From Nitrososphaerota archaeon (GTDB lineage: Archaea; Thermoproteota; Nitrososphaeria; Nitrososphaerales; Gagatemarchaeaceae), in NCBI GenBank assembly GCA_016200045.1, contig JACQFN010000013.1, forward strand, positions 1 to 64,000: a stretch of 64,000 nt of DNA. The letters are read 5' to 3'. Every line of letters begins with the position of its first letter. Within the stretch, counting starts at the first letter, position 1. Under the pieces are notes generated by a model that was not told the DNA's origin, did not search any database, and saw only the letters and a list, made by a program, of their open reading frames with translations. Made by a program: the position numbers and the translations under genes. Shown here piece by piece: positions 4,057 to 13,740 of the stretch.

Positions 4057-7041
4057 TCAGGAGATGCAAAGCAGCACCGCCTCGGCTTCTTCCACAGTGG
4101 TGAAGGTCTGGACCTGAAGGTCGATTGCCTTCCGCCTCACCTTCTGGAGGGTCTGGCTAGTCGAATTAGAGTTTGTGTTGAACGACAGAACGAACGATAC
4201 TCTTCCTTCGGATATCGAAGCGAGCGTTTGCTCCAGGATTTCAGGAGGGGAGTCGTAAGAAAGGGAGTCAATCCTGATTCCCTTCTTTGCGAAGGACGCG
4301 ATGAGCGGCTCTGACAGTGCAGAATCCCCAGCCTCCTCGAGAAGAAGGATCCCCCTTTCTCCCCCGCCGGGCAACTTGTGCCCAGTTGCAATGAACGCCT
4401 TTGAAAGGGCCTCCTTGAAAGTGCCCCCGAAGCACGCCACCTCTCCGGTCGAGCGCATCTCCACCCCTAGTCGGGGGTCGGCCCCTTCCATCTGAAGGAA
4501 GGAGAACTGAGGCGCCTTCACCGCGAATTCCTTTGGCTCTTCGACATCGGTCTTCCGCTCGAGGGTCCCGCCAAGGACGGCGGGAGCGATGAGGTCGATC
4601 AGGTTCACTCCAGTGGCCTTCGAAACGAAGGGGAGGGACCTGGACGCGCGCAGATTGCATTCGATCACATAGACTGAACGCCCCTTGACCAGGAACTGGA
4701 TGTTGAGCGGCCCCTTCGCCTTGAGCTCGCGCGCTATGCTCCTCGTGTAGGTCCTGATCTTCTCCTTGGCCGCCTTGGTGATGGAGACGGTGGGGATCGA
4801 CATGATCGCGTCCCCTGAGTGGACCCCGGCGTTCTGCACGTGCTCGATTATCGCACCGATGACCGTGGTCTTCCCATCCGAGACCGCGTCGACTTCGACC
4901 TCGCGAGACTCTTCGAGGAACTCGCTGACCGTGACCGGGTAGTCAGGGTTGACTCTCAGGGCCTTCAGGACGTACCTCTCGAGGTCCGTCGGGTCCCATA
5001 CGACGCGCATCGCGGCCCCGCTGAGCACGTGGGACGGCCTGACGATGACTGGGTACCCCACGCTCGAGCAGAACTCGGAGGCTTCGGCGGGGGACCTGAA
5101 GCTCCCCCAACTTGGCTGGGGGATTCCGAGCCTGTCAAGGAGTGCGCTGAACTTCCCCCTGTCCTCGGCCGCCTCCACGGACTGGGAGGACGTGCCCAAG
5201 ACCCTGACCCCCCTCTTTTCCAGCGCCACGGCCAGGTCGTTGGGGGTCTGCCCTCCGACGCAGAGCACCATCCCTTCCGGCCTCTCTTTATCGTAGATGG
5301 CGAGGAGCCTCTCGACCGTGAGCTCCTCGAAGTACAGCCTGTCGCTCATGTCGAAGTCGGTGGAGACTGTCTCGGGGTTGCAATTGACGACTATGACCTC
5401 TTCGACTCCGTTGTTCTTCAGCGCCCACGCCATGTTCATGGTCCCCCAGTCGAATTCGACCGAGCTTCCGATCCTGTAGGGTCCGGCCCCCACGACGATC
5501 ACCTTCCTCTTGCCGCTAGGCGGGGCCTCCTCGACCGCGCCGTCAAAGGTCTGGTAGAGGTAGTTCGTCTTGGCCGGCCACTCGGCCGCCAGAGTGTCTA
5601 TCACCTTCGTGACAGGGACCACCGAAGAGGCCAGCCGGGCCTCCCTGACCCTGTCTTCGTCAAGTGCGACAAGCTCTCCTATCTGCCTGTCTGAGAACCC
5701 CATCGTCTTCGCTCTGGAAAGGACCAACTTTTCCGGGAGGGAGTCCGGGGGGAGCCTTTCCAGCTCGGCGTATGAATCGGTTATGTTCTTGAGCTTGGTG
5801 ACGAACCACTGGTCCACTTCGGACTTCGAGCTCACCTCCTCGACGGAGAGGCCTCCCCTCAGCGCGTCCGCGATGTCGAACACTATCGTGTCGGTGGGAT
5901 GCTCCAGGCTCTCCACGAGGGCTTCCCTCGTTCTCGCCGGGGAAGGAGCGACGACCCCGTCGTGCCTCGGGCCCAGCATTCGTGCCGCCTTCTGGATGGT
6001 CTCCTCGAACCCCCTCCCGACGGCCATCACCTCCCCGATGGACTTCATCGAGGTTCCAATCCTGCGGGAGGCGCCGTCGAACTTGTCCGTGTCCCACCTA
6101 GGCATCTTCACGACAAGGTAGTCAAGCGAGGGCTCGAACAGTGCCGTCGTCACCCCGGACACCTTGTTCTTCAGCTCGGTGAGGGAGTATCCCAGCGCGA
6201 GCTTGGTGGCGATGTACGCGAGTGGATAGCCGGTGGCCTTGGAGGCGAGGGCCGATGACCTGGACATCCTCGCGTTGATTTCTATCGCGCCGTACCTCTC
6301 GGACTCCGGGTGGAGGGCGAACTGGATGTTGCACTCCCCGACTATCCCGCAGTGCTTTGCGGCCGCGAGGGACGCGCTCCTCAGCATGTGGTACTCAGAG
6401 TTCGTGAGCGTCTGCGACGGCGCCACCACGACGTTATCCCCCGTGTGGACCCGCATCCCCAGCATGTTCTCCATGTTGCAGATGATCACGCTGTTGTCGT
6501 CCCCGTCGCGCATGATCTCGTATTCGATCTGCTTCCATCCCCCAAGGTACTCCTCGACGAGCACCTGATGGGTGAGGCTGCTGGAGAGGCCTCGCTCGAC
6601 TATCTCGGAGAGCTCGCGCGCGTCCCTGGCGACCCCGCCCCCTTTCCCCCCAAGGGTAAACGCGACTCTGACCATCAGAGGGAAGCCCAAGTCACGTGAA
6701 ACCTCCCTCGCTTCGTCCTGGGAGTAGACGGCTCTGCTCCTAGGGACGGGTATCCCGATCTCCACCATGGTCTGCTTGAAGAGGTCTCTGTCTTCGGTGA
6801 TTTCGATTCCGTGCACGGGTGTCCCGAGGACCTTCACCCCGTGCCTGTCGAACACCCCGGAGCGGGAGAGCTCGATCCCGCAGTTGAGGGCTGTCTGGCC
6901 CCCGAAGCCGAGGAGGACCGCGTCTGGGGACTCTTCTTCTATCACCTCCTCCACGTACTGGGGGGTAACCGGCACGAACCGGATGTTTTCGGAGAACTGC
7001 CGGCTCGTTTGTATCGTCGCTATGTTCGGGTTGACCAACAC
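4057..7041 (-). CDS. carB: Carbamoyl-phosphate synthase large subunit (N-terminus interrupted)
   Basis: CarB makes carbamoyl phosphate from bicarbonate, ATP and the ammonia released by CarA. Both ATP-grasp halves are present: the first with GGQTALN and RVAFTLGGKGGG, the second beginning near residue 525 (VVGAGPYRIGSSVEFDWG) with a second GGQTPNDLA, then a C-terminal MGS-like allosteric domain. The uninterrupted frame begins at a GTG at 7041 and gives 994 residues, about 70 short of the family. The missing start (FDYSGSQCLKALKEEG) is encoded upstream in frame up to 7098, where a 22-nt insertion breaks the frame; the first beta strand lies beyond it. The gene sits between carA and the NUDIX gene in one minus-strand operon. 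Confidence 0.93.
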   Translation of the reverse strand: MLVNPNIATIQTSRQFSENIRFVPVTPQYVEEVIEEESPDAVLLGFGGQTALNCGIELSRSGVFDRHGVKVLGTPVHGIEITEDRDLFKQTMVEIGIPVPRSRAVYSQDEAREVSRDLGFPLMVRVAFTLGGKGGGVARDARELSEIVERGLSSSLTHQVLVEEYLGGWKQIEYEIMRDGDDNSVIICNMENMLGMRVHTGDNVVVAPSQTLTNSEYHMLRSASLAAAKHCGIVGECNIQFALHPESERYGAIEINARMSRSSALASKATGYPLAYIATKLALGYSLTELKNKVSGVTTALFEPSLDYLVVKMPRWDTDKFDGASRRIGTSMKSIGEVMAVGRGFEETIQKAARMLGPRHDGVVAPSPARTREALVESLEHPTDTIVFDIADALRGGLSVEEVSSKSEVDQWFVTKLKNITDSYAELERLPPDSLPEKLVLSRAKTMGFSDRQIGELVALDEDRVREARLASSVVPVTKVIDTLAAEWPAKTNYLYQTFDGAVEEAPPSGKRKVIVVGAGPYRIGSSVEFDWGTMNMAWALKNNGVEEVIVVNCNPETVSTDFDMSDRLYFEELTVERLLAIYDKERPEGMVLCVGGQTPNDLAVALEKRGVRVLGTSSQSVEAAEDRGKFSALLDRLGIPQPSWGSFRSPAEASEFCSSVGYPVIVRPSHVLSGAAMRVVWDPTDLERYVLKALRVNPDYPVTVSEFLEESREVEVDAVSDGKTTVIGAIIEHVQNAGVHSGDAIMSIPTVSITKAAKEKIRTYTRSIARELKAKGPLNIQFLVKGRSVYVIECNLRASRSLPFVSKATGVNLIDLIAPAVLGGTLERKTDVEEPKEFAVKAPQFSFLQMEGADPRLGVEMRSTGEVACFGGTFKEALSKAFIATGHKLPGGGERGILLLEEAGDSALSEPLIASFAKKGIRIDSLSYDSPPEILEQTLASISEGRVSFVLSFNTNSNSTSQTLQKVRRKAIDLQVQTFTTVEEAEAVLLCIS

Positions 7042-7098
7042 TGACTGGATCCCTTCCTCTTTCAGGGCCTTGAGGCACTGGCTGCCGGAGTAGTCGAA

Positions 7099-7120
7099 CT
7101 TGCGGCTGGTTCTACCAGCT
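7099..7120 (-). other. 22-nt hairpin insertion inside carB
   Basis: On the minus strand this segment contains the inverted repeat GCTGG-TAGAA-CCAGC. Removing any 22-nt block that starts within the three bases before it restores the family sequence GEAGE-FDYSGSQ exactly, so the insertion falls between two highly conserved residues. It carries an in-frame stop (TAG) for the upstream frame. The hairpin flanked by GCG and CGC resembles a relaxed bulge-helix-bulge splice structure, but the predicted cut would remove 21 rather than 22 nt. A mutation or an assembly error remain possible. Confidence 0.6.
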
Positions 7121-7168
7121 TTCGCCTGCTTCTCCGACCTTGATTGCCCCGCTCCCGATTACGAGTAC
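7121..7168 (-). pseudogene. carB: Displaced N-terminal exon or fragment of carB
   Basis: These codons read VLVIGSGAIKVGEAGE, the first beta strand and phosphate loop found at the start of every CarB, in a different frame from the rest of the gene. The fragment directly follows, and partly overlaps in context, the carA stop codon (7174-7176). Its frame stays open upstream to a TGA inside carA, but no ATG, GTG or TTG lies in that interval, so translation of this fragment would need an unusual start or another frame change. Confidence 0.6.
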
Positions 7169-7173
7169 ACGGC

Positions 7174-8430
7174 CTACTTGCTCACGCTTCGAATCTCCTC
7201 ACCTCTTTTTCGGGGGTGTCCCATCGATTCTGCGAATTTGTCGAAGACGAAGTTGGTGTCGTAGGGGCCGGGGTGCGCTTCAGGGTGGAACTGGACGGCG
7301 ATGCACGGCTTTGACCGGTGGTAGACTCCTTCAATGGTGTGGTCGTCGGCGTTGACGAACCAGGCCTTCAGGTCCGTCTTCGAGAGAGAATTCGGGTCCA
7401 GGGCGAATCCGTGATTCTGGCTGGTGACGTAGCCTCTCGCGGTGGAGAGGTCGATGCACGGCTTGTTCTGGCCCCTGTGCCCATACTTCAGCTTGAACGT
7501 TTCGACCCCCGCGGCCATCCCGACAATCTGTTCCCCCAGGCAAATCCCCAGGGTGGGGACGTCAGATCCGATCAACGACTCAACGCAGCCGACGGTCTCG
7601 ACGCACAGCTTCGGGTCCCCCGGCCCGTTGCTCACAACGACCCCCAGCGGGTCGTGCTTCATCACCTCAGAATATGAGGAGTCGTAGGGGAGCCTGACGA
7701 CCTGGTACCCCCTCGACAGGAGGTTCCTGACTATCCCGAGCTTCGCTCCGCAGTCGATCAAAGCCACCCTTCTGTCACCCGTCCCGTAGACGACGGGGGT
7801 CCTCACCGAAACCTCCCGCACGAGGTGGATAGTGTCGTACCCCGCGGCCTTCCTCAGTTGGTCGCGGAATCGGTCCGCTTGGTCAAGGTCCTGGCCGTTC
7901 GCTATGATTCCCATCATCACTCCGACCTCGCGGAGCCTGGTCACGAGCGCGCGGGTGTCGACCCCCTCTATCCCCGGGACCCCCTCTGAAGCGAGCCACT
8001 CGCTCAGCGTCTTCTCTGACGACCAGTGGCTAGGGGTCTTGCAGGCCTCTTGGACGACCGCGCCCTTCACCTGGATCGACCCCGATTCGAAGGACTTCGG
8101 AAGGCCGAAGGCGTCCCTTTCCTTGTAGGACGGGACTCCGTAGTTCCCTATGAGCGGGTAGGTGAAACAGAGTATCTGGCCTGCGTAGGAGGGGTCCGTG
8201 AGGGACTCAGGGTATCCCACCATGCCTGTGTTGAAGACCACCTCGCCGACTGAGTCCGAACCCGAGCCGAACCCACGGCCGAAGTAGATCGACCCGTCCT
8301 GCAGAAGAAGAAATGCGTCCTTAGAGCTCGCTTCATGCACTCTAAGAAGCGGCGAGTCGGTCGTTGCCGATTTAAGGGTATCGAGACGATGCGGATGGTC
8401 GGTCTTCGTGACCTCTGTCTGCTCGGGCAC
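7174..8430 (-). CDS. carA: Carbamoyl-phosphate synthase small subunit
   Basis: CarA hydrolyses glutamine and channels ammonia to CarB. The N-terminal CPSase domain runs from about residue 40 (FLLLQDGSIYFG, then VFNTGMVGYPESLTDPSYAGQ). A class I glutamine amidotransferase domain follows, with the nucleophile in LGICLGEQIVG, the SQNHGFA segment and the catalytic His/Glu in QFHPEAHPGPYDT. The length (418) is slightly above usual because of a ~40-residue N-terminal tail. The GTG start at 8430 is preceded by an AAGGAG ribosome site with 7-nt spacing. It is first in the operon and diverges from pyrB. Confidence 0.96.
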   Translation of the reverse strand: MPEQTEVTKTDHPHRLDTLKSATTDSPLLRVHEASSKDAFLLLQDGSIYFGRGFGSGSDSVGEVVFNTGMVGYPESLTDPSYAGQILCFTYPLIGNYGVPSYKERDAFGLPKSFESGSIQVKGAVVQEACKTPSHWSSEKTLSEWLASEGVPGIEGVDTRALVTRLREVGVMMGIIANGQDLDQADRFRDQLRKAAGYDTIHLVREVSVRTPVVYGTGDRRVALIDCGAKLGIVRNLLSRGYQVVRLPYDSSYSEVMKHDPLGVVVSNGPGDPKLCVETVGCVESLIGSDVPTLGICLGEQIVGMAAGVETFKLKYGHRGQNKPCIDLSTARGYVTSQNHGFALDPNSLSKTDLKAWFVNADDHTIEGVYHRSKPCIAVQFHPEAHPGPYDTNFVFDKFAESMGHPRKRGEEIRSVSK

Positions 8431-13323: not shown

Positions 13324-13644
13324 CCTTTCTTGAAGAAAAGAGGCTCGTGAGAGCGATTTCGATTCGCAACAGGCGGTGTTCAGACGCCTTGTTGACCTCC
13401 CAGATGAGCCGTCAGAGTTCACCCCGGTGGAGCTTGCTCCGCTGGAGACGAAGGGAGGCAGAGTTGTCCCCCGGGGCTCAGAGGGAGGCGGTAAAGGGAG
13501 TGTGGGAGGGAGCGGACATTTCCAGCTTCGAGCCATTCCTCTATCCGGTCCTCAAGGTCGACCTCCTCCTCAGGCGGAGAGGGAGGTCCGTCCTCCTCGG
13601 CGGGAGGACCGGTCGGGAACTTTCGCTCTGACCGGTGCCGAAGG
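13324..13644. other. 321-bp stretch without a secure gene
   Basis: Between the thioesterase remnant and tRNA-Ser. A minus-strand frame ending at 13419 includes an acidic segment (PPEEEVDLEDRIEEWLEAG) that could be a small protein, but its upstream part overlaps the tRNA and no start is clear. Nothing else is recognisable. Confidence 0.35.
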
Positions 13645-13740
13645 CGCCGGGGGTAGGATTCGAACCCACGCGACCCGAAGGTCACGGGCTGTCCAGGAAG
13701 GCGCTCAAGGCCCGCGCATTAACCACTCTGCCACCCCGGC
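13645..13740 (-). tRNA. tRNA-Ser (TGA) with a 13-nt intron
   Basis: The acceptor stem is perfect (GCCGGGG with CCCCGGC, G discriminator at 13645). The T-arm is GTGGG-TTCGAAT-CCTAC, and a long variable arm (GACC-TTCG-GGTC) marks it as type II. The anticodon stem CGGGC/GCCCG encloses 20 nt instead of 7. Removing 13 nt (13691-13703) after position 37 gives the loop CTTGAGA with anticodon TGA at 13705-13707. The intron position, directly 3' of position 37, is the canonical archaeal site. Confidence 0.9.

Follow-up and report, generated by a model that had tools for sequence, protein, structure and literature searches.

Interruption of the carB reading frame

We analyzed a stretch of 64,000 nucleotides (the window) from the genome of a soil archaeon of the Nitrososphaerota. 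Its minus strand carries carA (7174–8430 in the list of open reading frames, named CarA from its sequence and position), followed by carB, a gene of pyrimidine synthesis, with the ends of the two genes overlapping, while the open reading frames adjoining them on the other strand read, from their translations, as pyrB, pyrI and pyrC. Between GEAGE and FDYSGSQ, after GGC GAA and before TTC GAC TAC, carB is interrupted by the 22 nt AGCTGGTAGAACCAGCCGCAAG (7099–7120, minus strand), the order on the minus strand being ...GCAGGCGAA, AGCTGGTAGAACCAGCCGCAAG, TTCGACTAC... The first frame reads VLVIGSGAIKVGEAGE and then TGG TAG, running into a stop, and the part beginning with FDYSGSQ lies in a different frame of 1013 codons plus stop (4057–7098). 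The preliminary description of this DNA had placed the CarB N-terminus in two frames separated by 22 nt and had held that deleting these restores the family sequence, and we find the same: VLVIGSGAIKVGEAGE is followed by FDYSGSQ, and residues 1–178 of the predicted spliced CarB align without a gap to positions 2–179 of TIGR01369. The 3′ exon on its own aligns from position 25 of this family; it is intact, scoring 1294.8 bits where the cut-off is 1027. A predicted tryptic peptide of spliced CarB includes GEAGEFDYSGSQCLK. A search of the window's genome found a single carB, so that a broken copy would be without a back-up.

The putative 5′ exon (7121–7177, minus strand, translated as VLVIGSGAIKVGEAGE) ends with 7121 as the final base before the proposed cut, and its upstream limit is tentative. 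From the upstream stop to the insert (window 7121–7210, minus strand) there is no in-frame ATG, GTG or TTG. A standard start is also absent from carB of some insert-free relatives, and carB of loci L002–L019, L029, L072 and L101 likewise has none of these codons in frame ahead of the insert. The carA stop is overlapped by a GTA (7175–7177) that lines up with the GTG starts of some relatives, and a scan for non-standard starts shows CTG at the expected position in 55 intron-bearing relatives; we tentatively let the 5′ exon begin at this GTA. In the comparison of carB starts with related genomes that had been proposed earlier, intronless relatives keep an uninterrupted N-terminus. Given a 5′ exon with no standard start and a 994-aa open reading frame from GTG 7041, it could be argued that the N-terminus is blocked, that CarB is made from this or another internal start, and that the hairpin is regulatory. 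We regard this as very improbable, since CarB would then lose the conserved segment VLVIGSG...FDYSGSQ, which in relatives is still conserved upstream of the insert, and since neither the constraint on exonic codons described below nor the full N-terminus of intronless relatives would be explained.

Distribution of the insert among relatives

In a draw of 400 genomes of the order, comprising Nitrososphaerales and other ammonia-oxidizing Nitrososphaerota, a degenerate pattern allowing a gap of 12–42 nt detected an insert at the same site in 212 genomes from 42 of 66 genera, and a pattern for the uninterrupted site matched 138 genomes from 26 genera. The gapped pattern in reverse, used as a control on the same 400 genomes, gave 0 matches, which places the 212 inserts far beyond chance. 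At least 118 named records carry a same-site insert and nearly all are labelled Nitrososphaerota; among the matches listed are Nitrosopumilus, Nitrosarchaeum, Nitrosotalea (including N. devanaterra and N. bavarica), Nitrosotenuis, Nitrosocosmicus, Nitrososphaera and Cenarchaeum, with two exceptions, a 'Candidatus ainarchaeum' bin and a Woesearchaeota bin (L104 and L156). Within the window's own genus, three more genomes (G007, G005 and G010) have the identical 22 nt and a fourth (G021) has a 21-nt version. An error of assembly or sequencing, or a decayed carB, might have been suspected in a genome fragmented into 25 contigs, and mutation and assembly error were indeed among the options first considered. 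The identical insert is present in a single-contig genome (G005), homologous inserts occur in hundreds more genomes, and the 1013-codon 3′ exon is intact. Conservation on this scale excludes assembly error and recent mutation, and we give this whole group of explanations a negligible probability.

In some relatives the insert is precisely absent. A CarB tree of 183 rows, built by a quick method, requires at least 14 changes of intron state, 8 of them forced by supported branches, compared with 47 when the labels are shuffled. In the window's genus five basal rows have the intron, and twelve rows that form a nested group lack it, a pattern suggestive of a single loss. From another class of the same phylum, two genomes (L239/G454 and L240/G478) have same-site inserts of 28 and 19 nt with a different hairpin and with the central helix GCGG:CCGC in place of GGCG:CGYC. 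The rows labelled DPANN have the exon core AUCGG(A/G)GAAGCAGGCGAR...TTCGACTACTCCGG in common; on the CarB tree they are distant from the main clade, CarB of L104 and L156 falling outside the Nitrososphaerota clade. These outlying introns may be very old, or may be due to transfer, contamination or repeated gain. Separately, carB of L249 and L250 is broken in frame within its second half; these breaks were considered as further introns and rejected, as they fit deletions in incomplete bins.

Structure of the insert and of its flanking exons

Across 103 distinct contexts, which hold 82 distinct introns, the insert is 20–34 nt long; it shifts the frame in 58 of them and carries an in-frame stop in the other 45, leaving 0 open to read-through. 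The contexts follow the consensus GGCG-AR/A-GYC...GRC-CGYC-AN/T, in which the slashes mark the proposed cuts. In the window the central helix is formed by GGCG in the 5′ exon (7123–7126) and CGCA in the intron (7101–7104), with three of four pairs and one G.A mismatch. This helix, GGCG:CGYC in the consensus, has all four pairs in 91 of the 103 contexts and three in the remaining 12, which are of the CGCA type seen here. Its 3′ strand in relatives may be CGTC, CGCC, CGCT or CGTT, or the helix is GGTG:CACC, so that compensatory support comes from the exchange of GC and GU pairs, from GGUG:CACC, and from GCGG:CCGC in L239/L240. The 5′ bulge AA/A (7120–7122, cut between 7121 and 7120) conforms to AR/A (AA/A or AG/A) in 103 of 103 contexts, and the 3′ bulge AG/T (7098–7100, cut between 7099 and 7098) conforms to AN/T (AA/T, AG/T or AT/T) in 102 of 103.

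Inside the insert is a hairpin (7105–7119) in which GCTGGT (7114–7119) and ACCAGC (7105–7110) enclose the loop AGA, an inverted repeat of 6 bp rather than the 5 bp first described. Its pairs 2–4 covary: pairing holds in 100, 100 and 98% of rows, whereas shuffling of the 3′ letters lowers this to 84, 87 and 66%, and across the CarB tree the pair type changes 14, 11 and 8 times. When RNAalifold was run on 104 sequences, anchored at the ends only and with our model withheld, it gave a bulge of 3 nt, a helix of 4 bp, a further bulge of 5 nt and an outer stem. The RNA of the window folds at −23 kcal/mol (z = −2.23), and in the predicted fold the 3′ bulge becomes part of a larger, asymmetric loop between the central helix and the outer stem. 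The modelled motif of the window is a relaxed bulge-helix-bulge (BHB), with three of four helix pairs and an asymmetric 3′ loop, and the resemblance suggested in the preliminary description is strengthened by the helix, the bulges and the covariation in relatives.

In cbf5 introns the cut falls between the second and third base of the bulge (PMC2738675), and the same rule applied to AA/A and AG/T removes exactly 22 nt. It had been calculated before that bulge cuts would remove 21 nt, a figure derived from a GCG:CGC helix with an AAG 3′ bulge. The helix of the relatives extends by one position (G with C or U, here G.A), from which it follows that the 3′ bulge is AGU and that 22 nt are removed. 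We find, then, a central helix of about 4 bp with bulges on opposite strands, 3-nt bulges that give the correct joined product when cut after base 2, and compensatory changes in the helices that are strong for the inner one; by sequence-level tests the carB insert is of the kind expected of an archaeal BHB intron. A self-splicing group I or II intron was also considered and rejected, as such introns have a catalytic core of hundreds of nucleotides and the insert has 20–34, and no Rfam intron family was found in the window.

A short hairpin insert with a stop that is precisely skipped every time also has the appearance of a translational bypass site, at which, as for T4 gene 60, the insert would stay in the RNA and be hopped over by the ribosome. 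Bypass requires matched take-off and landing triplets. Here the take-off codon GAA or GAG is faced by AAG, CAA, CAG, TAA, CAT and others before the landing site, and bypass has no need for the central helix, for bulges of fixed composition or for the compensatory GCGG:CCGC. We therefore consider bypass very improbable and favor the intron, for which both the conservation and the BHB structure in relatives argue.

The fold appears to be held by the exons. A predicted outer stem pairs GTCGGAG (7132–7138) in the 5′ exon with CTCCGGC (7084–7090) in the 3′ exon, the GGAG:CTCC part with a probability of 0.99–1.0 and with synonymous constraint, and a candidate second stem pairs GGGGCA (7145–7150) with TGCCTC (7072–7077). 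Cells of the second stem are paired in 94% of cases in intron-bearing genes compared with 62% in intronless ones, and all of its pairs are present in 91 of 128 intron-bearing rows compared with 2 of 55 intronless rows. In genomes of low GC, the synonymous codons of carB genes with the intron are unusual at codons −10 to +9 only: ATC in 84, GGA in 84, GGC in 86, GAC in 80, TAC in 82, TCC in 73 and CTC in 72 of 86 sequences. The corresponding numbers among 22 intronless sequences of similar GC3 are 6, 7, at most 1, 2, 2, 0 and 5, and codons farther out show no such difference. Because some letters are preset by the scan patterns (GAAGC, GGY, TCN), this comparison is limited to the third positions that were left free. 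A set of 56 intronless sequences gives the same contrast, as does codon usage elsewhere in carB (GAC 0.29, TAC 0.32, TCC 0.09). The constrained codons build the stems AUCGGAG:CUCCGGU and GGGGCA:UGCCUC, and on independent supported branches a codon change accompanies a change of intron state 6.1 to 0 (median p 0.03). This indicates that the flanking synonymous codons are frozen to preserve the two outer stems and that normal usage is regained where the intron is absent.

Proposed splicing and relation to known introns

We suggest, with a probability of about 0.93, that these 22 nt form a BHB intron of the carB mRNA, or probably the carA-carB mRNA, with EndA cutting and RtcB joining. In the pre-mRNA the end of the 5′ exon, GGCG, would pair with the end of the intron, giving two 3-nt bulges around a helix of four positions with a hairpin within the intron, and one or two stems drawn from the coding sequence of both exons would hold this fold. 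The heteromeric tRNA-splicing endonuclease (EndA) would then cut past base 2 of each bulge, and RtcB would ligate GGCGAA to TTCGAC, restoring the CarB frame. We infer cutting and ligation, as well as EndA and RtcB as the agents.

The window's genome contains the catalytic EndA subunit and RtcB. Relaxed motifs outside tRNA need a heteromeric EndA. In our search of this 96.9%-complete genome the alpha subunit alone was found and the beta subunit was not; most relatives have two EndA genes, and in G005 the relative of the catalytic subunit has its best PDB matches in chains 3p1z/3ajv, while the second EndA seems, by eye, to be without the catalytic histidine. An alpha2beta2 EndA has been ascribed to Thaumarchaeota (review, PMC4090602). 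The genome moreover uses tRNA-type splicing, as indicated by a 13-nt intron at the canonical position 37/38 of tRNA-Ser(TGA) (13643–13740, minus strand), detected in the intron mode of ARAGORN and matching the Rfam tRNA family. The default ARAGORN run leaves the anticodon of this tRNA unnamed, which the intron mode resolves. The gene for RtcB, the presumed RNA ligase (L261, G000:C24:168600-172200), is one open reading frame of 1007 aa in which about 500 aa are inserted after family position 50, an insertion that looks like an intein.

BHB introns were reportedly found in crenarchaeal cbf5 pre-mRNA by Watanabe in 2002. Splicing of such introns has been proven (Yokobori 2009, PMC2738675), and according to a 2020 paper cbf5 alone had been reported as having an mRNA intron (PMC7714728); cbf5 was also the archaeal case named at the outset. 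The two resemble each other in being small introns in conserved protein genes, with a BHB-like motif, the same cut rule, precise lineage-specific loss and a lineage to which a heteromeric EndA is ascribed. In contrast to cbf5, where splicing is proven, the carB insert is a putative intron; it lies in another gene, site and phylum, is 20–34 nt long and has two coding-exon stems with frozen codons. With the BHB introns of tRNA and rRNA it has the logic of the motif in common, and presumably the enzymes, whereas its host is an mRNA and the fold that supports it is built of coding sequence, not of a tRNA body. BHB processing of the 5′ UTR of Haloferax HVO_1309 (PMC7714728) likewise provides an EndA substrate in an mRNA, but there an untranslated leader is processed, while the carB intron is within the coding region. 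T4 gene 60 shares the short, hairpin-containing coding gap; the carB insert differs in having BHB features and no matched take-off and landing codons. In a search of the open-access literature we found no mention of a carB intron. Its minimal length, exonic scaffold and great breadth are unusual.

We can further imagine, as a rather unlikely extension, that archaeal mRNA introns have a second class, of ancient origin and wide distribution, to which the carB intron belongs. This class would predate the split of Nitrososphaerota, the other class of the same phylum and DPANN, or would have spread together with its exon 'cradle', and it would be kept because splicing at the first conserved motif of CarB serves to control pyrimidine or arginine synthesis. 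Ammonia-oxidizing archaea rank with the most abundant cells of the ocean and of soil, and a single-copy metabolic gene in these organisms would be a second intron-bearing archaeal protein gene beside cbf5. The intron occurs in hundreds of species, including cultured strains that allow a direct test of splicing, and gene-calling programs presumably report carB as split or truncated in the genomes that bear it. In carB, coding sequence appears to be constrained as a scaffold for splicing, and the repeated precise absences raise the question of how introns leave archaeal genomes.
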